Origin: a virus
Virus record (IMG/VR): IMGVR_UViG_3300028920_000029
Span: 109,363 to 173,362 of that record
Strand: one strand, 5' to 3'
DNA length: 64,000 nt
In this document: in pieces, positions 4,987 through 61,713 of the stretch
Numbering within the stretch: position 1 is the stretch's first letter
How the letters are laid out: each line of letters begins with the position of its first letter
The notes under the pieces: model-generated
Told to the model about the DNA's origin: nothing
The model's database searches: none
Seen by the model: the letters and a program-made list of their open reading frames with translations, nothing else
Position numbers and translations under genes: made by a program

Positions 4987-5322
4987 CTAGGCAAACTCTA
5001 TTCGTACTGAAGTAACTCCCCATGTGTCCATGTCGTTCACTAAATCTTCTTCCTTAAGAGGTTCTTCAGACGAACAAAAGTACCGTGACATCACTGACCC
5101 ATCCTTAAGTAATTTAACCTTAAGGCTTTGTTCCTTGTCAGTCTCCTTAACCGACGCAAAGAACTTTCTGAACAGGGTTGTTAGAATGGTTGGTGATGGG
5201 TCACTGTGGAAGTCTACCTCTATCACCCTGTCTCCAGTCCTTTGCAGGTCACAATGCTGAGCACGGTTAAAAACTTTAATCGCTTCGTAATACTTTGAGA
5301 GGTCTGTGTAATCTTCACTCAA
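4987..5322 (-). CDS. Unknown protein, 111 aa, TTG start
   Basis: Begins with TTG at 5322 (reads (M)SEDYTDLSKYYEA), overlapping the TGA of the upstream gene. A GGAGGTG site lies 5-6 bases upstream, which supports the rare TTG start. Soluble, acidic protein with no recognised motif. Confidence 0.7.
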   Translation of the reverse strand: MSEDYTDLSKYYEAIKVFNRAQHCDLQRTGDRVIEVDFHSDPSPTILTTLFRKFFASVKETDKEQSLKVKLLKDGSVMSRYFCSSEEPLKEEDLVNDMDTWGVTSVRIEFA

Positions 5323-5582
5323 AATAGCACCTCCATTTTTTGCAGAAAAAGTTTGACAACTTCTTTGGTAGGCTTATCAAAGATATAGGTGTCTCTGTTT
5401 TCATCCATTAACTTATCCGCATACTCTCCCAAACGCCTACCGTTACACGTAACCTCTTCCCACACCAAAATGTCGTGGTTAGCATAACGTAACACCAGTT
5501 CCAGCCACGTATGGAATAACATATGTTTCTGTTTTTCCACTAATTTCCGTCGTAGCCTTTGTTTATACTGGCGGTTATTCAT
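5319..5582 (-). CDS. Unknown protein, 87 aa
   Basis: Starts MNNRQYKQRLRRKLVEK and is strongly basic at the N terminus, so nucleic-acid binding is possible but not shown. It overlaps its upstream neighbour by 8 bases and its downstream neighbour by 4, typical of an operon. Confidence 0.7.
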   Translation of the reverse strand: MNNRQYKQRLRRKLVEKQKHMLFHTWLELVLRYANHDILVWEEVTCNGRRLGEYADKLMDENRDTYIFDKPTKEVVKLFLQKMEVLF

Positions 5583-18483: not shown

Positions 18484-18520
18484 TGGTGCCAGCAGATGGA
18501 CTCGAACCACCGTAGCTATA
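18484..18520 (-). pseudogene. 3' half of a split tRNA
   Basis: Contains a good T arm (GGTGG-TTCGAGT-CCATC), the 3' acceptor strand TGCTGGC, discriminator A and CCA, but the 5' half is missing here. The matching 5' half lies at 19141-19178: its GCCAGTA pairs with all 7 acceptor bases. Between them lie tRNA-Tyr and an HNH gene. Confidence 0.75.
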
Positions 18521-18604
18521 TGGTGGGCAGGGATGGATTCGAACCATCGTACCCGAGGGAACGGATTTACAGTCCGCCGCCTTTAACCGCTCAGCCACCT
18601 ACCC
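18521..18604 (-). tRNA. tRNA-Tyr(GTA)
   Basis: Class II tRNA: acceptor GGGTAGG/CCTGCCC, anticodon loop CTGTAAA, long variable arm, encoded CCA. Its 5' end overlaps the stop codon of the HNH gene and its CCA abuts the 3' half of the split tRNA. Confidence 0.95.
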
Positions 18605-19081
18605 ACGTTTTTTACTACCATATGTATCTGTTTGAGTATGACAATTTGGACAAAGAATTCTTAGGTTCTCTAATCTATTGTCAGTATGATCACCGTTTAT
18701 ATGGTCTAAGTGCATACTTAGTTTTTTATTATTCCATACGTTACCTTGACTACATTTCTCACATATTTCCTGCTTTAATCCAAACTCATATAATTTTTGT
18801 TTTAATGCATGACTTGTCCACTTAGCACCATCTAAACAAAGAACATTTTTTGTGAAGGACGTTATGGAGTGTTTCCTGCTATTGGCCCCAGTAGATGACC
18901 ACCCACGATTTTTAAAATGGGACGTATCTAGCCCATAATCCTTAATACGTTTAGCCACTAAATTGTGACTTCCTCCACCTACTCGTAAACCTAACTCTCT
19001 AATAATGTCCGCGACATTATAATGTCTTTTGACTAACTCGTTTAACAGTTCCTTACTATATTTTGTAGTATTTGCTTTCAT
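18599..19081 (-). CDS. HNH homing endonuclease
   Basis: 160 aa from the ATG at 19081 (MKANTTKYSKELL), chosen for its AGGAGG site. The C-terminal HNH motif is clear: CEKC ... LDHINGDHTDNRLENLRILCPNCH. An N-terminal helix-turn-helix-like segment (NVADIIRELGL) may guide DNA binding. The stop codon lies inside the tRNA-Tyr acceptor stem. Flanked by two halves of one tRNA, so it probably invaded that gene together with tRNA-Tyr. Free-standing HNH nucleases are common mobile genes in phages. Confidence 0.9.
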   Translation of the reverse strand: MKANTTKYSKELLNELVKRHYNVADIIRELGLRVGGGSHNLVAKRIKDYGLDTSHFKNRGWSSTGANSRKHSITSFTKNVLCLDGAKWTSHALKQKLYEFGLKQEICEKCSQGNVWNNKKLSMHLDHINGDHTDNRLENLRILCPNCHTQTDTYGSKKRG

Positions 19082-19108
19082 AGTAAACCTCCTATCTAGA
19101 ATACTACT

Positions 19109-19137
19109 AGTATAGCATATTATAGTGACAAAAGCAA
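19109..19137 (-). promoter_or_regulatory. Promoter for the HNH gene
   Basis: TTGCTT, 17 bases, TATACT, about 28 bases before the HNH start codon. The -35 is weak, the -10 fits the window consensus. It begins right after the 5' half of the split tRNA. Confidence 0.55.
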
Positions 19138-19140
19138 ATA

Positions 19141-19178
19141 CCAACAGCCAGATGTCATTGCCGCTAGACTATACTGGC
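19141..19178 (-). pseudogene. 5' half of a split tRNA
   Basis: Exactly tRNA positions 1-38: acceptor GCCAGTA, D arm GTCTAGCGGCAATGAC, anticodon 5' stem TCTGG and loop CTGTTGG (anticodon would be GTT, Asn-like). The sequence then diverges into the HNH leader. The partner 3' half is at 18484-18520. Confidence 0.75.
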
Positions 19179-19940: not shown

Positions 19941-19952
19941 TTATTTTTAAAA

Positions 19953-20239
19953 GTAATTCATAACCCAGGTTCTGTTTTTGCAGTCATTAATCTTAGCGTC
20001 CTTACCCGCGTGCTCCGTGAGGTCTCATCATCACACGCCTATTTGGACTTGCTCACAGTAAAGGTTGGTCGTCTCACTTGTTTTTAGTTTATATAATTTT
20101 CAGAATCTGAGTTTTTATAAAACTAAAAACAACTCGTCTCTGTCCCCTATTTGTCGCTCACGCGCCCAGCTTTTAAGACTGGTACTGCGCCTCAATTGAG
20201 CCTGGAGTTTCCTCGGTTTCCCGCGACTGCTTGAATCAC
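19953..20239 (-). ncRNA. rnpB: RNase P RNA (M1 RNA homologue)
   Basis: A 287-base RNA with the diagnostic conserved blocks in the right order: GAGGAAACTCCAGGC near the 5' end (cf. GAGGAAAGTCCGGGC), GAGCAAGTCCAAATAGG in the 3' half (cf. GAGCAAGGCCAAATAGG), and ACAGAACCTGGGTTA near the 3' end (cf. ACAGAACCCGGCTTA). The two ends pair as an 8-bp P1 helix (GTGATTCA/TGAATTAC). A long AT-rich hairpin (GTTTTTAGTTT/AAACTAAAAAC) sits where P12 is expected. It is shorter than the 377-base E. coli RNA. RNase P cuts tRNA 5' leaders; its place inside a 29-tRNA array fits. It presumably uses the host protein subunit. Confidence 0.92.
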
Positions 20240-20241
20240 TC

Positions 20242-20454
20242 TTATTTTTTCAACAATGCAATTAATTCTCTTCTAGCTTTTGCTTCCTCTGGGGTATCGT
20301 GAACACTATGATCTACCCATTTAACATCCACTTCTGAATACTCAACAAATCTACCATCAACTAAAATCCATCCTCGTTTTGTGTTTTTGTTTCCAAATAA
20401 TACTGGTCCAGCAATTTGTACTTTTTCTCCTGTAGCTTTAATTATTGCTTCCAT
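20242..20454 (-). CDS. Unknown protein, 70 aa
   Basis: Starts MEAIIKATGEKVQIAGPVLF at 20454 behind AAGGAGG; the longer frame would run through tRNA-Asp and is rejected. Small beta-type domain and a helical C terminus. It lies between tRNA-Asp and RNase P RNA, so its mRNA may be released by tRNA processing. Function unknown; an RNA-related role would be guesswork. Confidence 0.75.
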   Translation of the reverse strand: MEAIIKATGEKVQIAGPVLFGNKNTKRGWILVDGRFVEYSEVDVKWVDHSVHDTPEEAKARRELIALLKK

Positions 20455-21209: not shown

Positions 21210-21755
21210 CTATATCTTCCATTTTTTACGTCTTTTAATAACAGCTTGACCACTACAATTTTTAATAGTAGCAATCTCTTCGTTAGTTTTTCCGTCTTTT
21301 ACTAAGGCCTCAAGTTCTCTTTTGTTCCATTCTATTTTTCCAGCTAATTTTCCTGCACACATTAAAGAACAAGTTTTTCTATATGCCATCTTTTCCTTGC
21401 CACATACTGGGCAAAAATCCTTTAATTCGTTTTTAGTAGAATCTGTTATAAGTTTATCATTAAATCTCAATGCTGTTTTTGGAATTATACTTATTAATCC
21501 ATGCACTTCGCTATGACAATTGCTACAAACCATAACACATTTTTCTACTTCTTTTTTAATTTTTATCCACTTCGTAGGATCTCTAAGCATAAAAGCAATT
21601 CCGCTTTCTTTATCTTTACTATTTAAATGATGGAACTCTAAAGCGTCTATATGTTTATTATACCCACAAATGCAACATTTTCCACCAAAACCTTCTACTA
21701 GTTTCTTTTTTGTATTCCGTCTCCAACGTTTTACAGCCTCAGATTTAGCACTCAT
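21210..21755 (-). CDS. HNH endonuclease
   Basis: 181 aa. The HNH core is CCICG ... LEFHHLNSKDKESGIAF ... CVMVCSNCHSEVH in the first 100 residues. A second zinc-like group (CPVCG ... CSLMCAG) and a C-terminal helix-turn-helix (TNEEIATIKNCSGQAV) probably bind DNA. It sits between tRNA-Asn and tRNA-Gln without breaking either. Likely a free-standing homing endonuclease using tRNA genes as its niche. Confidence 0.9.
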   Translation of the reverse strand: MSAKSEAVKRWRRNTKKKLVEGFGGKCCICGYNKHIDALEFHHLNSKDKESGIAFMLRDPTKWIKIKKEVEKCVMVCSNCHSEVHGLISIIPKTALRFNDKLITDSTKNELKDFCPVCGKEKMAYRKTCSLMCAGKLAGKIEWNKRELEALVKDGKTNEEIATIKNCSGQAVIKRRKKWKI

Positions 21756-21830: not shown

Positions 21831-21905
21831 TGGCTCCAGCGGGTGGAGTCGAACCACCATTTTACTCCTTAACAGGGAGGCGCATTACCATTATGCTACA
21901 CTGGA
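21831..21905 (-). tRNA. tRNA-Asn(GTT)
   Basis: Acceptor TCCAGTG/CGCTGGA, discriminator G, anticodon loop CTGTTAA, T loop TTCGACT, CCA encoded. An intact Asn tRNA would make loss of the split Asn-like tRNA harmless. Confidence 0.92.
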
Positions 21906-22308: not shown

Positions 22309-22383
22309 TGGTAGTCGGAGTGGGTACTGCCCCCACCTGGTCCTCTTTGTAAGAGAGGTGCATGACTAATCTGCCATCCGACT
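22309..22383 (-). tRNA. tRNA-Val(TAC), odd T loop
   Basis: Acceptor AGTCGGA/TCCGACT, anticodon stem CCTCT/AGAGG, loop CTTACAA. The T loop reads GGCAGTA instead of TTCRANY, so T54 and U55 are both missing. Confidence 0.85.
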
Positions 22384-22558: not shown

Positions 22559-22629
22559 TGGTACCACGAACTGGAATTGCACCAATCCTCTGGGCGTATG
22601 AAACCCTGAGTCCATCTAATGGTCGTGGC
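22559..22629 (-). tRNA. tRNA with CAT anticodon, possibly Ile2
   Basis: Third CAT tRNA. Acceptor GCCACGA/TCGTGGT, anticodon loop TTCATAC, T loop TGCAATT (G55), unusually short D arm (about 71 bases in all). With an initiator and elongator Met already present, an AUA-reading Ile tRNA with lysidine is the likeliest role, but this is inference. Confidence 0.8.
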
Positions 22630-22637
22630 CTATATTT

Positions 22638-22713
22638 TGGAGCCCACGGAGGGACTTGCACCCCCAACCGTCGGTTTACAGGACCGCTGCTCTTCTATTA
22701 AAGCTACGCGGGC
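22638..22713 (-). tRNA. tRNA-Thr(TGT) with C33
   Basis: Acceptor GCCCGCG/CGTGGGC, discriminator T, anticodon loop CCTGTAA: position 33 is C instead of U. T loop TGCAAGT has G55. CCA encoded. Confidence 0.88.
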
Positions 22714-56635: not shown

Positions 56636-58650
56636 CCTATCTCCTCAGTTAGTTTCTTAACTTTCTTTTCCAACCGTTCCTTATCCTTCAAGCACTTAGG
56701 GCAAACCTTGTGTTCACCAGAAATATACCCGTGCTCTGGACAAATACTAAATGTCGGAGTTAAACTTACATATGGTATCTTATAGTTGTGCATAACTTTT
56801 TTAACCAGGGCCTTTGCCTGATCGCCCGAAAGCTGTTGACCAGTGTACACGTGTAAGACCGTACCCCCTGTGTATAACGCTTGGATTTCATTCTGATGTT
56901 CCAAAACCTTAAACACATCGTCACTATAGGTTACTGGCAACATGGTGGAGTTAGTAAAGTATGGCTCCTCCGTTCCAGACGTCAATATCTTATTGTGCAT
57001 ATCCTTAGCCTTTCTTGCTAGTTTGTACGACGCACCCTCAGCTGGTGTAGCTTCTAGGTTATAGAAGTTACCCGTATCTTTTTGGAACTTAAGAAGCATC
57101 TCATTAAGATACTTAAGGGTCCTCTCTGCCAACTCTTTTCCCTCATCCGAGTCGTAGGGTATACCTAACATTTCTGAGGCTTCACTCATACCTATAACTC
57201 CTATCGTTGAAAAGTGATTGGCCCAGTAAGATCCATCTCTCTTTTTTATGTTAGCTAAGTAATGTTTTGAGTAGGGGTACAGTCCTTTCTCGGTTAGATT
57301 TTCTAATAGTTTACGTTTAGCTTCTAGAGTAACCTTACCCAACTCGGCATACTTTTTTATTAAAGTAAAGAATTGGTCTACTGTTCCGCTAGCCTCGTAA
57401 GCCATCATAGGTAAATTTAATGTGACTACACCAACACTGCCCGTAAGAGAACTGGAACCAAACAATCCCCCACCTCTCTTATGAAGCTCCTTAAGGTCTA
57501 ATCTAAGCCTACAACACATGCTTCTAGAATCTTCTGGACTCATATCTCCTGTACAGTAGTTGGCAAAATAACATAAACCATATTTAGCTGTACCTTCCCA
57601 CAAAATCTCAAGGTTTTTGTTATCCCAATCAAAATCACTCGTGATGTTTACTGTAGGTATTGGAAAAGTAAATATTCTGTTTTGCGCGTCTCCTTCTATC
57701 ATAACCTCAAACAACGCCTTATTAAACAGATTTACTTCCTTTTGGAACTCACCATACGTTTCTTTCTGATACTCACCACCTATTATAACTGGCTGACCCT
57801 TTAGGTGATTAGGTATAGTTAAATCTAAAGTTATATTTGAAAAAGGTGTTTGGAAGCCGACGCGTGTTGGTACATTCATATTAAACACAAAAGTCTGTAA
57901 CGCCTGCTTTAGTTGTTTGTAAGTCAAGCCATCATAAAATATAAATGGGGCTAGGTAGGTATCAAAATTACTAAATGCTACTGCACCACTTGATTCGCCT
58001 TGTAAGCTGTATAAAAAGTTTACTGCCTGTCCTAACGCCACATCAAAATGTTTTGCGGGAGAGGAGTGGAGCTTTCCTTCCACCCCTCCAAATCCTCGTA
58101 ACAGTAAGTCTTGTATGTCCCACCCGTTACAATAAACTCCCAGTAATCCTAAATCGTGAATGTGTATATACCCAGAACTATAAGCATCCGCGGCCTCTTT
58201 AGGGACTACCGCGTCAAGCCAAAACTGCTGTGTGAGTTCATTGACTATCGCATTATTCATACCCTGTAGAGAGTATCCCATGTTAGCATTTTCGTTAATC
58301 TTCCAATCCAGTTGATCGATGTATTTATTAAATAAGTTGTTTCGTTTCTTCTTAGATAGTGATAGATCTTTTTGTAGGATATGCTGGTACCTGTAGCGCA
58401 TAAAAGCCCTGGCGACCTTGTAATACCTCTTTGCCATAAGCGCATCTTCTATACAATCCAACGCGTCTACTTTTTCCACAACACCATTTAGGTCGGCGTG
58501 AACAATCAAATCCATCTTAACTTTCTCTATTAAGTCATTAAGTATCGCATCGTTAACTTCCATATCAGACGCACTAAATGCTCTCTTTATATCTGTTTTC
58601 ATCTTATCGTCATTAAACTCCGAAATTCCAGAATTAGTTTTTATCTTCAT
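56632..58650 (-). CDS. nrdD: Anaerobic ribonucleoside-triphosphate reductase (NrdD), C-terminally truncated
   Basis: 672 aa. N-terminal ATP-cone-like part, then core motifs (YIHDLG, FSNFDTYLAPF, CRLRLDLKELHKRGGG, LNLPMMAYEA) and the zinc site CPEHGYISGEHKVCPKC. In full-length NrdD the zinc site is followed by the glycyl-radical segment (R-V-x-G-Y); here the protein ends 20 residues later in a Lys-rich helix (KERLEKKVKKLTEEIG) without that motif. No frameshift restores it. The radical domain may be supplied by a separate peptide or host protein. Confidence 0.9.
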   Translation of the reverse strand: MKIKTNSGISEFNDDKMKTDIKRAFSASDMEVNDAILNDLIEKVKMDLIVHADLNGVVEKVDALDCIEDALMAKRYYKVARAFMRYRYQHILQKDLSLSKKKRNNLFNKYIDQLDWKINENANMGYSLQGMNNAIVNELTQQFWLDAVVPKEAADAYSSGYIHIHDLGLLGVYCNGWDIQDLLLRGFGGVEGKLHSSPAKHFDVALGQAVNFLYSLQGESSGAVAFSNFDTYLAPFIFYDGLTYKQLKQALQTFVFNMNVPTRVGFQTPFSNITLDLTIPNHLKGQPVIIGGEYQKETYGEFQKEVNLFNKALFEVMIEGDAQNRIFTFPIPTVNITSDFDWDNKNLEILWEGTAKYGLCYFANYCTGDMSPEDSRSMCCRLRLDLKELHKRGGGLFGSSSLTGSVGVVTLNLPMMAYEASGTVDQFFTLIKKYAELGKVTLEAKRKLLENLTEKGLYPYSKHYLANIKKRDGSYWANHFSTIGVIGMSEASEMLGIPYDSDEGKELAERTLKYLNEMLLKFQKDTGNFYNLEATPAEGASYKLARKAKDMHNKILTSGTEEPYFTNSTMLPVTYSDDVFKVLEHQNEIQALYTGGTVLHVYTGQQLSGDQAKALVKKVMHNYKIPYVSLTPTFSICPEHGYISGEHKVCPKCLKDKERLEKKVKKLTEEIG

Positions 58651-61039
58651 CAGCGTCTCCTCTCGGCGAATTTGGGTTCCAGAATGATGTTACGCCATTC
58701 TTAAACTTATTGTCGTCTAGTGAATATATGGATGTTATAGAAAAATCTTTTATCAACTCAACTGTTGCGGACATAGCGTGACGGTTGATAACCCTAAATT
58801 TTATTGTTGACAAATCGGATACGCCATCATCTTCTTCGTCCTTTATAATCGATAATAGAATATCTAACGTTTGAAACCAGGTATCGGACCTAGCAAGGTC
58901 ATCACCAGGGTTCATATCGTTTTTCTTCTTAGCCTTGTTACTGTGTATTCCACTACGCTTTAACTGGACCGCAGTTAACATAACCTTACCCATTTCTCTA
59001 CCTATTCCTCGTAGGTCTTCGGCTATACTTCCTTGGTCTATCCAATCGGAACCAGCAAATTGATTTGGTCGCATCATAGTAGCGTGGTCTATAGCTATAA
59101 CATCGTATGTTATTCCAGTCTGTGCCTCTATCTCCTGTATCTTATGTTTTATATAGTCTGGATTAACGCTGCTTAATGTGTCCACTATAGTTAGCTTACC
59201 CATATCTTCTTTTAAGCGCTTTTGAAACTTATTTACTGCTAGCATCTCTATATCATTTAGCGTTCTGTCCTCAAACTTATAGTATTGGATACCAGTCATA
59301 CAGCTAAAAAATAAATTTACGTACTGATCCTTCGGCATTTCCAACGTAAAGGCAAGCACGTTAACCTTATCCTTAACCATATTTGAGACTAAGTTAACCA
59401 TAGAACGAGTATTGTGCACTACTGTAAAGTCTGCAAGTAGGAACAAGCTATTTTTATCTACAGCAAACCCATAATATTCTCCAGTTCCTACCTCCTCAAT
59501 TTTAAATCCAGTCTTTAGTGCGTCACGACAACGTACAGATTTGGCCTCCGCCTTTTTTCGGGATATTATAGTAGGTATCCTACTGACTTCCCCACCTATA
59601 CGTATTCTCCAATACTTGCCACTAAACCCGATAGATTTTATAGTTTTAGTTACTTTTTTAGCAGTAACACCAAATCCCAAAGACCTTCCAAGAAATACTA
59701 TATCATCCTTTAACGCGCGATACTTTGTAACAATCTCGTAAGTTTTACTGTCATAGTATCCGTCAGAGTCGAGTAACCCAGCCAAAACTTCAAGCCTAAC
59801 TTTTTCGTCATTAATTTTGTACGTATGCGGTATATGTTTATTATGTAATAAGTTAAATTTTCTTAACTCATCTAGTATATAGTTGTTCCCCCTGGAATAT
59901 GTATCATGAAAAGCTAAGTAATAGCACGGACATTTTCCACTCTTCGACTTTTGCTCGGTAAGTTTTCCATTAAATTTACTCATTAGTTTCGTTAAGTACG
60001 TGACTATCTCAGAATCCTTAGTAGTTATTTCCGCAGCCTTACTAGACCCATCTCCCAACCATAACCCCAGTAAATACGGAGGTAAGTACTTAGGCACCCT
60101 AGAAGATTTAAACTGCACACCAGATCTATATAGTTTGTACTTACGTAAATTTTCCTTTTTGGCGCGGTGTAGATACTCCCTTACAGATATGTTTAGAATT
60201 TTAGGAAGACCCCTATCTAACCTTTGACCGCTTTTCTTAAGAGACAATATGTGAGATTCATTCACAACAAACGGTTCTCCTTTATTCGGTATTATCTTGT
60301 ACATTTTCTCCTTACCACTTGTTGTTCCTTCCACACGTCTTGGAGTACTGTCGTCTCCCATAACTAGTTCCCCGTTTTTTATATCTTCAACTTTCTTTAC
60401 TAAACCATCATACATCAAAACCTCAGTTCCTTTCGCAAAGCATTTTCCTGTTTTGGGCCTAGCAGCTACCACAACCAAATATCCTGGTTTGAACCCGTGA
60501 ATAACAGTGTCAAACTCTTTATACCCAGTACGTATCTTCCTCTCGTTTTTAGGTTGATTTAATGTAGATGTTATGTCCGATGCGTCGTCATTAAGATTAA
60601 CTACCAATCCTCTGTTATCCCCAAGTTGCGATACCTGCTTGTTAACTTTATTTAACTCTTTCTCCGCTGCAGCTATGTTTCCATCGTTTAAGGTCATCAC
60701 TATATTCTGAACCGACTTGCTCATAACAAATTTCTTTTTATGACTAGTTAATGTACTTATTACCCATTCACAGGAAATGTCAACTATCTCATCTGATGTC
60801 ATACTGATATAGTCTTCATATATATCCTTATTAAGTCCAATATCCTCTAAAGACTTTCTCAATTCTATAGGACTTATTGCCTGTCTATAGCTCTTATAGT
60901 GATTAAGTATTTCTCTGACTATACTTTTACTAATTGAATTATTAAAATACGAACTATCAATACCTTCGGTTATAAACTCCAGCGTAGCCTCAGGATTGAG
61001 TAGTAGGTAATTTATTGCTAGTTTTTCTATGTCTACCAT
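58634..61039 (-). CDS. dnaB: DnaB-like replicative helicase with an intein
   Basis: 801 aa including a 344-aa intein. N-terminal DnaB domain, then the RecA-like core: ARPKTGK before the intein and T-R-S-M after it form the Walker A motif, followed by FTLEMPKDQY, IAIDHATMM (Walker B) and AVQLKRSG. Start is the ATG at 61039; the GTG three codons earlier would sit on the ribosome binding site. The helicase unwinds DNA at the replication fork with the DnaC-like loader encoded directly upstream. It only works after the intein splices out. Confidence 0.93.
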   Translation of the reverse strand: MVDIEKLAINYLLLNPEATLEFITEGIDSSYFNNSISKSIVREILNHYKSYRQAISPIELRKSLEDIGLNKDIYEDYISMTSDEIVDISCEWVISTLTSHKKKFVMSKSVQNIVMTLNDGNIAAAEKELNKVNKQVSQLGDNRGLVVNLNDDASDITSTLNQPKNERKIRTGYKEFDTVIHGFKPGYLVVVAARPKTGKCFAKGTEVLMYDGLVKKVEDIKNGELVMGDDSTPRRVEGTTSGKEKMYKIIPNKGEPFVVNESHILSLKKSGQRLDRGLPKILNISVREYLHRAKKENLRKYKLYRSGVQFKSSRVPKYLPPYLLGLWLGDGSSKAAEITTKDSEIVTYLTKLMSKFNGKLTEQKSKSGKCPCYYLAFHDTYSRGNNYILDELRKFNLLHNKHIPHTYKINDEKVRLEVLAGLLDSDGYYDSKTYEIVTKYRALKDDIVFLGRSLGFGVTAKKVTKTIKSIGFSGKYWRIRIGGEVSRIPTIISRKKAEAKSVRCRDALKTGFKIEEVGTGEYYGFAVDKNSLFLLADFTVVHNTRSMVNLVSNMVKDKVNVLAFTLEMPKDQYVNLFFSCMTGIQYYKFEDRTLNDIEMLAVNKFQKRLKEDMGKLTIVDTLSSVNPDYIKHKIQEIEAQTGITYDVIAIDHATMMRPNQFAGSDWIDQGSIAEDLRGIGREMGKVMLTAVQLKRSGIHSNKAKKKNDMNPGDDLARSDTWFQTLDILLSIIKDEEDDGVSDLSTIKFRVINRHAMSATVELIKDFSITSIYSLDDNKFKNGVTSFWNPNSPRGDADEDKN
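59411..60442 (-). mobile_element. Intein with LAGLIDADG endonuclease in DnaB
   Basis: Codes for 344 residues, from Cys1 (CFAKGTEVLM) to the terminal HN before Thr+1. Two LAGLIDADG-type motifs, LLGLWLGDGS near intein residue 125 and VLAGLLDSDG near 220, mark an active-looking homing endonuclease. It splits the Walker A lysine from the following Thr, a classic DnaB insertion site. Confidence 0.95.
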
Positions 61040-61044
61040 TTGCG

Positions 61045-61713
61045 TCACCTTAACCTATAGTTTAAACCTCTTACTTCCGTAATTGAATCTGTTCCAAATA
61101 AATCCCTACAAACTGGTAGCCTATTAGCTACCACGTCATACTCATCTGAAAATATTAAGATACTAGGTTTTTGATTGCTATACCTGTTTTTTATTATTCG
61201 TTCCAGCGTTTCGTTAGGATACTTTGAATCCGTTCTCATCGAGTCCTTCCCGATATCATCGATAACTAGTAAATCTACCTTACGTAGTGCGTCAATGATA
61301 TTTGGCTCTTCTGGTGATGGATTTAGCCGCTTATCTAAAAGTGTTGTCCACATAATGTATTTGCACGATTTACCTTTTCGTAGCATTTCTTTTAATATTA
61401 GTATTGCGCCCAATGACTTTCCTGTCCCGCTATCTCCATAAATGGCCCATAATGAACTGGAGTTAATAACTAAGTCGATATTTTCTACGGCTCGACTAAC
61501 GCGCTCAACAAACTGTTTATGTTTAACAGATACTTGGGGATATAAATGTTCTAACTCTTTTTCGAAGTATTCTTTTGGAACTCCTACGGAGGCTAGGGTC
61601 TTTTCCCACATAGACTTTTTTAGGTTAACGCCTTTATCGCAGTCACAGAACCCAGCCCACTCTCGTCCATCTGTTAATATATATCCTCGGTCAGAGCATT
61701 TATCACACGACAT
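61045..61713 (-). CDS. DnaC-like AAA+ helicase loader
   Basis: 222 aa. N-terminal zinc-type cluster (CDKCSDRG ... CDCD), Walker A IYGDSGTGKSLGA near residue 92, Walker B LLVIDDIGKD near 145 and an Arg-rich sensor part. Directly upstream of dnaB, so it likely loads the helicase. Confidence 0.9.
   Translation of the reverse strand: MSCDKCSDRGYILTDGREWAGFCDCDKGVNLKKSMWEKTLASVGVPKEYFEKELEHLYPQVSVKHKQFVERVSRAVENIDLVINSSSLWAIYGDSGTGKSLGAILILKEMLRKGKSCKYIMWTTLLDKRLNPSPEEPNIIDALRKVDLLVIDDIGKDSMRTDSKYPNETLERIIKNRYSNQKPSILIFSDEYDVVANRLPVCRDLFGTDSITEVRGLNYRLR

Follow-up and report, generated by a model that had tools for sequence, protein, structure and literature searches.

An interrupted tRNA gene at the end of a phage tRNA array

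We analysed a window of 64,000 nucleotides (nt) from the 173,362-base IMG/VR virus record IMGVR_UViG_3300028920_000029, in which a tRNA gene, hereafter the resident, is interrupted by an HNH endonuclease gene and an intact tRNA-Tyr. The interrupted gene lies at the downstream end of a minus-strand array (approximately 23064 to 18484) in which ARAGORN detected 26 tRNAs. In the direction of this strand, the tRNA 5' half is followed by a promoter and ribosome-binding site stretch, the HNH gene, the intact tRNA-Tyr and the tRNA 3' half:

19143..19178, minus strand: tRNA 5' half, positions 1-36 of the broken resident, Tyr- or Asn-type (sequence; acceptor strand pairs 7/7 with the 3' half)
19082..19142, minus strand: left end of the insert, with a promoter-like TTGCTT-17 nt-TATACT (19137-19109) and a ribosome-binding site GGAGG (about 19092-19088), putatively those of the HNH gene (sequence)
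18599..19081, minus strand: HNH endonuclease gene, 160 amino acids, PHROG 10822, with the invariant Cys, His and Asn residues intact (profile match, alignment, model)
18521..18604, minus strand: intact tRNA-Tyr(GUA) with CCA, the carried tRNA (ARAGORN; Rfam RF00005, 58.9 bits)
18484..18520, minus strand: tRNA 3' half with variable region, T arm, acceptor strand, A73 and CCA (sequence; pairs with the 5' half; half-pair search)

From position 19178, the 5' half reads GCCAGTA-TA-GTCTAGCGGCAATGAC-A-TCTGG-CTGTT. Its D arm has a GTC/GAC stem around TAGCGGCAAT (GCCAGTA TA GTC TAGCGGCAAT GAC A TCTGG CTGTT) with GG in the D loop; U33 is present and the half terminates within the anticodon loop. The first-pass annotation of this DNA had also placed the end of the 5' half at that loop, as positions 1-38; here the half is read as positions 1-36. 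The 3' half (18520-18484) reads TATAGCTAC-GGTGG-TTCGAGT-CCATC-TGCTGGC-A-CCA. There are 61 nt between the 5' half and the ATG of the HNH gene; the candidate -35 box in this stretch is weak, and a scan for promoter consensus sequences did not list it. The HNH reading frame was corrected: it starts at the ATG at 19081 and its stop codon (18599) lies 6 nt inside tRNA-Tyr, so that the first 6 nt of the tRNA, in its acceptor stem, hold the stop. The presence of an HNH gene and an intact tRNA-Tyr between the halves, the CCA of the latter abutting the 3' half (18521/18520), was confirmed.

The acceptor strands of the two halves, GCCAGTA and TGCTGGC, form 7/7 pairs, including one G-U. Sequence reading and ARAGORN agreed with the earlier description of two halves with all seven acceptor bases paired, and placed both on the minus strand. 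Only 10/719 distinct tRNA 5' acceptors paired fully with TGCTGGC, none of them from another tRNA of the window, and random pairs of 5' and 3' acceptors matched completely in 0.45% of cases. Since the acceptor pairing is complete and rare by chance, we consider the observation of a halved tRNA with an HNH gene and a tRNA-Tyr in between to be confirmed.

The first-pass annotation had suggested comparing the locus with related genomes that might hold an uninterrupted tRNA. No such copy of this very tRNA was found, as the comparison yielded no close relative of the phage. Two DNA-pattern scans for an uninterrupted relative returned only unrelated tRNAs (a tRNA-Tyr in L081 and a tRNA-Thr in L082; L numbers designate the sequences compared), a scan for a relative of the phage using another window protein found none, and BLAST of the joined halves against phage genomes gave merely short T-arm matches. 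Hidden Markov models of the half tRNAs were too weak. The same two halves were not found in unrelated places.

A search of the locus for Rfam intron families, with E values up to 1, gave no match, and the positive control, the group I intron that interrupts a tRNA of L161, was found at 53 bits. A group I or other known intron in the tRNA was rejected on this basis. Pairing between the half transcripts near the junction reached -12.1 kcal/mol, and 18% of shuffled sequences did as well; a trans-splicing helix joining the halves was rejected on these grounds.

The inserted gene belongs to an HNH family found next to tRNA genes

The HNH protein of the window matched phrog_10822 with an E value of 1.7e-45. 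The residues C108, C111, H128, N140, C145 and H149, invariant in an alignment of 30 members, are all intact in the window protein. Its structure model, which is confident (mean predicted local distance difference test score, pLDDT, 88), gave only weak HNH-fold matches in the PDB (best E 0.03). Pfam, PHROG and structure all indicated an HNH and not a GIY-YIG nuclease. The gene has its own start and stop and, with no Rfam intron at the locus, lies outside any intron or intein. Its product is predicted from the sequence to be a free-standing HNH homing endonuclease of PHROG 10822.

Relatives of this protein are encoded in 84 distinct viral loci, for the most part within tRNA arrays, and a tRNA was present in the fetched stretch for 77/84. 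The stop codon of the HNH gene was located between -40 and +20 nt from the start of a same-strand tRNA in 40/84 viral members, compared with 65/818 other open reading frames (ORFs) of those loci (Fisher p ~1e-18). An HNH relative was also found directly upstream of the chromosomal tRNA-Leu(UAG) in six actinobacterial chromosomes (L164-L168, L172), its stop codon -9 to +70 nt away. The other HNH gene of phage FelixO1 (phrog_2255) was considered as a case of tRNA replacement and discarded: it lies between intact tRNAs and replaces nothing.

Nuclease genes split tRNA genes in other contigs

We searched 100 tRNA-rich sequences (574 kb, both strands) for pairs of tRNA halves with full acceptor pairing, a D arm, a T arm and a join accepted by ARAGORN. 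Seven pairs were found, that of the window and six others, and none in the reversed sequence. Every pair with a gap of more than 300 nt encloses a nuclease gene (window, L035, L054, L131 and L149). L131 has the same anatomy as the window: a 5' half, an HNH gene, an intact tRNA-Ile(GAU), a small ORF and the 3' half. In L035 the HNH gene is alone inside the tRNA, starting and stopping at the halves. In L054 a tRNA-Ala(GGC) is split after U33, with GACCTT at both borders; the splitting gene combines the N-terminal, DNA-binding part of PHROG 10822 with a C-terminal nuclease part from another family.

L149 contains a 5' part, an HNH gene, an intact tRNA-Val and a doubtful 3' half; as this last lies in a tRNA-Phe-like gene, L149 counts only as a doubtful fourth full split tRNA. 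Close relatives of its nuclease occur in L179, L181, L182 and L183, which share DNA only from the truncated tRNA 5' end to the start of the intact tRNA-Val. In L182 the order is a remnant AGGAC.., the HNH gene, tRNA-Val and ..GTCCTACCA, the last matching the AGGAC 5' remnant.

Split tRNAs with no nuclease gene between the halves were seen in L072 and L161. In L072 (3517-3716) the matching halves are 176 nt apart and gave no Rfam intron match, and in L161 (1182-1459) a phage tRNA holds a group I intron in its anticodon loop (RF00028, 53 bits, 1204-1415). Further tRNA genes with altered anticodon loops were noted. In two different large-phage contigs, L036 (5841-5974) and L034 (4673-4796), tRNAs scoring 50 and 47 bits have 57-64 nt in this loop; the long loops have GTCG, TTGCGCAA and GTTATCCAAGCAG in common, and a small intron of unknown type is possible. 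A further gene of L034 (4133-4237) has an expanded loop of 21 nt. On the reverse strand of L043 (about 5301-5436), and also in L044, L045 and L047, a gene of tRNA-His(GUG) type, whose acceptor and anticodon stems match, holds a second, degenerate tRNA-like sequence in its anticodon loop. In L176, the HNH match at 2501 has a cyanobacterial tRNA-Phe-like gene some 215 nt upstream; the anticodon loop of this gene contains about 21 extra nt, which are missing from the near-identical gene of L175.

Cultured phages with and without the HNH gene

Alleles with and without a PHROG 10822 gene at one site were identified in four sets of cultured phages (Michonne/KMM2, phiPsa347/phiPsa374, EFDG1/TJE1 and EPA3/JG004). 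The flanks of Michonne, which has the HNH gene, are about 97% identical to those of KMM2 and Sf13, which do not. The resident tRNA-Leu(UAG) of KMM2 and Sf13, GGGAGATTGACGG..., is reduced in Michonne to its first 10-11 nt; the HNH gene follows, then a different tRNA-Leu(UAG), GCACCTATAGCCC..., and the alleles rejoin at TACCA. Likewise, a different tRNA-Leu(UAG) comes with the HNH gene in phiPsa347 as compared with phiPsa374, rejoining in the T arm or the CCA. EFDG1 (compared with TJE1 and Bop) is identical to the resident tRNA-Leu(UAG) of TJE1 for 35 nt, up to U33 in the anticodon loop, after which come the HNH gene and another tRNA-Leu(UAG). The resident was thus cut in the anticodon loop, as in the window.

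In all three comparisons with a carried tRNA, this tRNA had the same anticodon as the one replaced, and carried and resident sequences differed around the anticodon. Collectively, the comparison of relatives and alleles shows that PHROG 10822 genes insert into tRNA genes, in many cases at the anticodon loop, and that a diverged tRNA with an identical anticodon frequently accompanies them and takes the place of the resident. In three relatives the element brings a substitute for the gene that it interrupts, and it probably does so in the window.

The broken tRNA of the window is probably a tRNA-Tyr

The anticodon of the resident depends on the cut point: it is Asn(GUU) if the cut lies after position 36 and Tyr(GUA) if it lies after position 35. 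The 3' half has the discriminator A73; in the tRNA set used, this position was A in 8/8 phage tRNA-Tyr and G in 8/8 phage tRNA-Asn. The best match of the 5' half among 799 tRNAs was a phage tRNA-Tyr with an identical D arm. Assigning isotypes to remnants by nearest neighbour gave weak results, except for Ser in L049 and for Tyr as the best match of the window. Tyr is favoured because of A73, the best 5' match and a carried tRNA that is also Tyr. The broken resident is probably a tRNA-Tyr, an identification that draws on A73, the D arm and analogy and falls short of proof. The phage has kept a tRNA for Asn in addition to the one for Tyr, since the array also contains an intact tRNA-Asn:

21831..21905, minus strand: intact tRNA-Asn(GUU) elsewhere in the array (ARAGORN)

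If the CCA is counted as shared with tRNA-Tyr, positions 39-43 of the resident are CCATA and the anticodon stem TCTGG/CCATA has 4/5 pairs; without this sharing, positions 39-43 are absent. Several joins of the halves were accepted by ARAGORN as tRNA-Asn, with 4/5 anticodon-stem pairs, a CCA taken from tRNA-Tyr and 7 nt in the variable region. The CCA-shared stem and the accepted join suggest that the right junction used the (A)CCA common to the end of the carried tRNA and to positions 38-41 of the resident.

Origin of the interrupted tRNA

We propose, with a probability of roughly 0.7, that a free-standing homing cassette inserted itself into a resident tRNA of the phage array, the cassette consisting of the HNH gene and, joined to the 3' end of this gene, an intact tRNA of diverged sequence. 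The HNH protein would nick or cut the resident gene in the anticodon loop, and repair would copy in the HNH gene and the carried tRNA. The resident would be reduced to remnants while the carried tRNA presumably takes over its job, its divergent sequence around the anticodon protecting it from being cut in turn. In the window, the cut would have fallen after G34-U35 of a resident that was probably a tRNA-Tyr, and the carried tRNA-Tyr would have taken its place. The right junction would have formed at the internal CCA (resident positions 39-41) and not at the terminal CCA, leaving the resident 3' half behind, so that the gene looks split. A nuclease-driven insertion carrying a tRNA had been put forward in the first-pass annotation, and is borne out by the HNH relatives inside tRNA genes and by the alleles with and without the HNH gene in cultured phages.

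Several observations weigh against this proposal. Some PHROG 10822 members merely sit between tRNAs, and 5' remnants, scored by a looser test as orphan D-arm motifs, were not significantly enriched upstream of HNH genes (21/89 versus 96/588, p 0.10). No insert-free allele was found for the window locus itself, for which there is no close relative, and the anticodon of its resident as read is GUU (Asn). All three replacement alleles concern tRNA-Leu(UAG). L049 has a Ser-type 5' remnant but a tRNA-Leu after the HNH gene, and in EPA3, compared with JG004, the HNH gene stands in place of a tRNA-Trp-like gene of which only the 3' end is left, with no substitute; because of these two cases, the same-isotype rule is not universal.

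Two other accounts concern the halves themselves. They could derive from different tRNAs and match by chance or through rearrangement of the array, which is frequent in such arrays, and the halves of L149 possibly have this origin. For the window we find this extremely improbable, in view of the 0.45% match rate of random acceptor pairs, a 3' half that fits no other window tRNA, and halves that enclose exactly one HNH-tRNA unit. The halves could also be a functional split tRNA, both being transcribed and joined or the middle being spliced out. They do retain all conserved positions, the 7/7 acceptor pairs and an encoded CCA, and ARAGORN accepted several joins as tRNA-Asn. We nevertheless hold a working split tRNA, the other possibility raised at first, to be very improbable: no Rfam intron was detected even at an E value of 1, the junction duplex was matched by 18% of shuffles, the anticodon stem is incomplete and not fully rebuildable, an intact tRNA-Tyr with its own CCA sits in the middle of the insert, and the remnants in relatives are truncated or missing. 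The locus is most likely an insertion scar.

A further account is plain hitch-hiking, in which the HNH gene entered by homing or chance recombination and dragged along an adjacent tRNA of the donor array; this tRNA would have no rescue role and the resident could be a tRNA-Asn. The GUU anticodon, the intact tRNA-Asn elsewhere in the array, the mixed isotypes of L049 and the missing substitute in EPA3 are all consistent with it, and co-conversion of flanks is known for free-standing homing (PMC2988022, PMC13096335). We consider it unlikely, although clearly more credible than the two preceding accounts: carried and replaced tRNAs had the same anticodon in each of the three allele comparisons, Tyr is favoured by A73 and the D arm, and six actinobacterial chromosomes have an HNH relative immediately upstream of tRNA-Leu(UAG).

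The insertion of a homing cassette may be part of a more general process, natural cleave-and-rescue of tRNA genes, for which we see an even chance. HNH proteins of the family would target the DNA of the anticodon loop of a single tRNA isotype, cleave it and propagate together with a recoded tRNA of that isotype. If so, phages would swap tRNA genes by nuclease-driven replacement and could not easily lose the element, and the window would represent a Tyr case in which the victim still has both of its halves. Cleave-and-rescue predicts a cut site and a resistance of the carried tRNA that are testable in Michonne, phiPsa347 and EFDG1.

Other features of the window

The array contains a second HNH-like gene:

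21210..21755, minus strand: HNH-like gene with its end 1 nt before tRNA-Gln (21208) (no Pfam match)

Three tRNAs on the minus strand were missed by ARAGORN: Val(UAC) at 22310-22383, a Met(CAU)-like tRNA at 22560-22631 and Thr(UGU) at 22641-22713, the last found by Rfam with 46 bits. A class A bacterial RNase P RNA lies within the array (19946-20242, minus strand; RF00010, 112 bits, gathering threshold 100); a search of the open-licence literature for phage-encoded RNase P RNA returned nothing relevant. Outside the array, a DnaB-like helicase frame (58634-61048, minus strand) has an apparent intein or homing-endonuclease insertion.

Comparison with known systems

Phage tRNA arrays are now viewed as weapons against tRNA-cutting defences, and how they gain, lose and diversify their tRNAs is, to our knowledge, poorly understood. 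By breaking a resident tRNA and supplying a diverged replacement with an identical anticodon, a nuclease would drive tRNA turnover; such a process would account for orphan tRNA halves as well as for phage tRNAs of unusual sequence. Our searches of the open-licence literature turned up no paper describing HNH genes that split tRNA genes of phages or that put a same-isotype tRNA in their place.

The closest described system is SegB, a free-standing GIY-YIG homing endonuclease of T-even tRNA regions, with an insertion site at tRNA-Arg/tRNA-Ile (PMC2988022). In T6, a unit containing tRNA-Tyr is amplified by SegB, and the 5' end of the tRNA shares microhomology with the 3' end of segB (PMC13096335). 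Both systems have a free-standing nuclease gene among phage tRNA genes, a target in tRNA sequence, a moved or amplified unit that includes tRNA-Tyr, and junctions at short homology where the 3' end of the nuclease gene meets the 5' end of a tRNA. They differ in that SegB is a GIY-YIG nuclease with an intergenic target, listed between tRNA genes, whereas the window nuclease is an HNH protein inside a tRNA gene, at the anticodon loop. Cassettes of the window type also carry a diverged tRNA of the same anticodon that would replace the resident.

Homing endonucleases are also associated with group I introns in tRNA genes, I-Ssp6803I of the tRNA-fMet intron being an example. These introns occupy the anticodon loops of bacterial tRNAs, and a 2014 review placed all phage introns known at that time in protein genes (PMC3984707). 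Like them, the window has an insertion in the anticodon loop with a homing endonuclease gene. Unlike them, it has no intron RNA detectable by Rfam and nothing that would restore the interrupted tRNA, which would instead be replaced by an intact one.

The PHROG 10822 HNH proteins of cultured phages, such as AKU44037.1 of Citrobacter phage Michonne, belong to the same protein family as the window nuclease and show the same HNH-tRNA fusion. In those phages the HNH gene is often coupled to tRNA-Leu(UAG) and the 3' half of the resident is missing, whereas the window has tRNA-Tyr and has kept the 3' half. The synthetic home-and-rescue and cleave-and-rescue drives (PMC7968924) share the logic of an element that disrupts a gene by means of its nuclease and supplies a recoded version of that gene resistant to cutting. 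Those drives are engineered with CRISPR in insects, whereas the window holds a natural phage HNH gene and a tRNA whose resistance to cutting is inferred; a nuclease acting as proposed here would be the natural counterpart of such engineered rescue drives.
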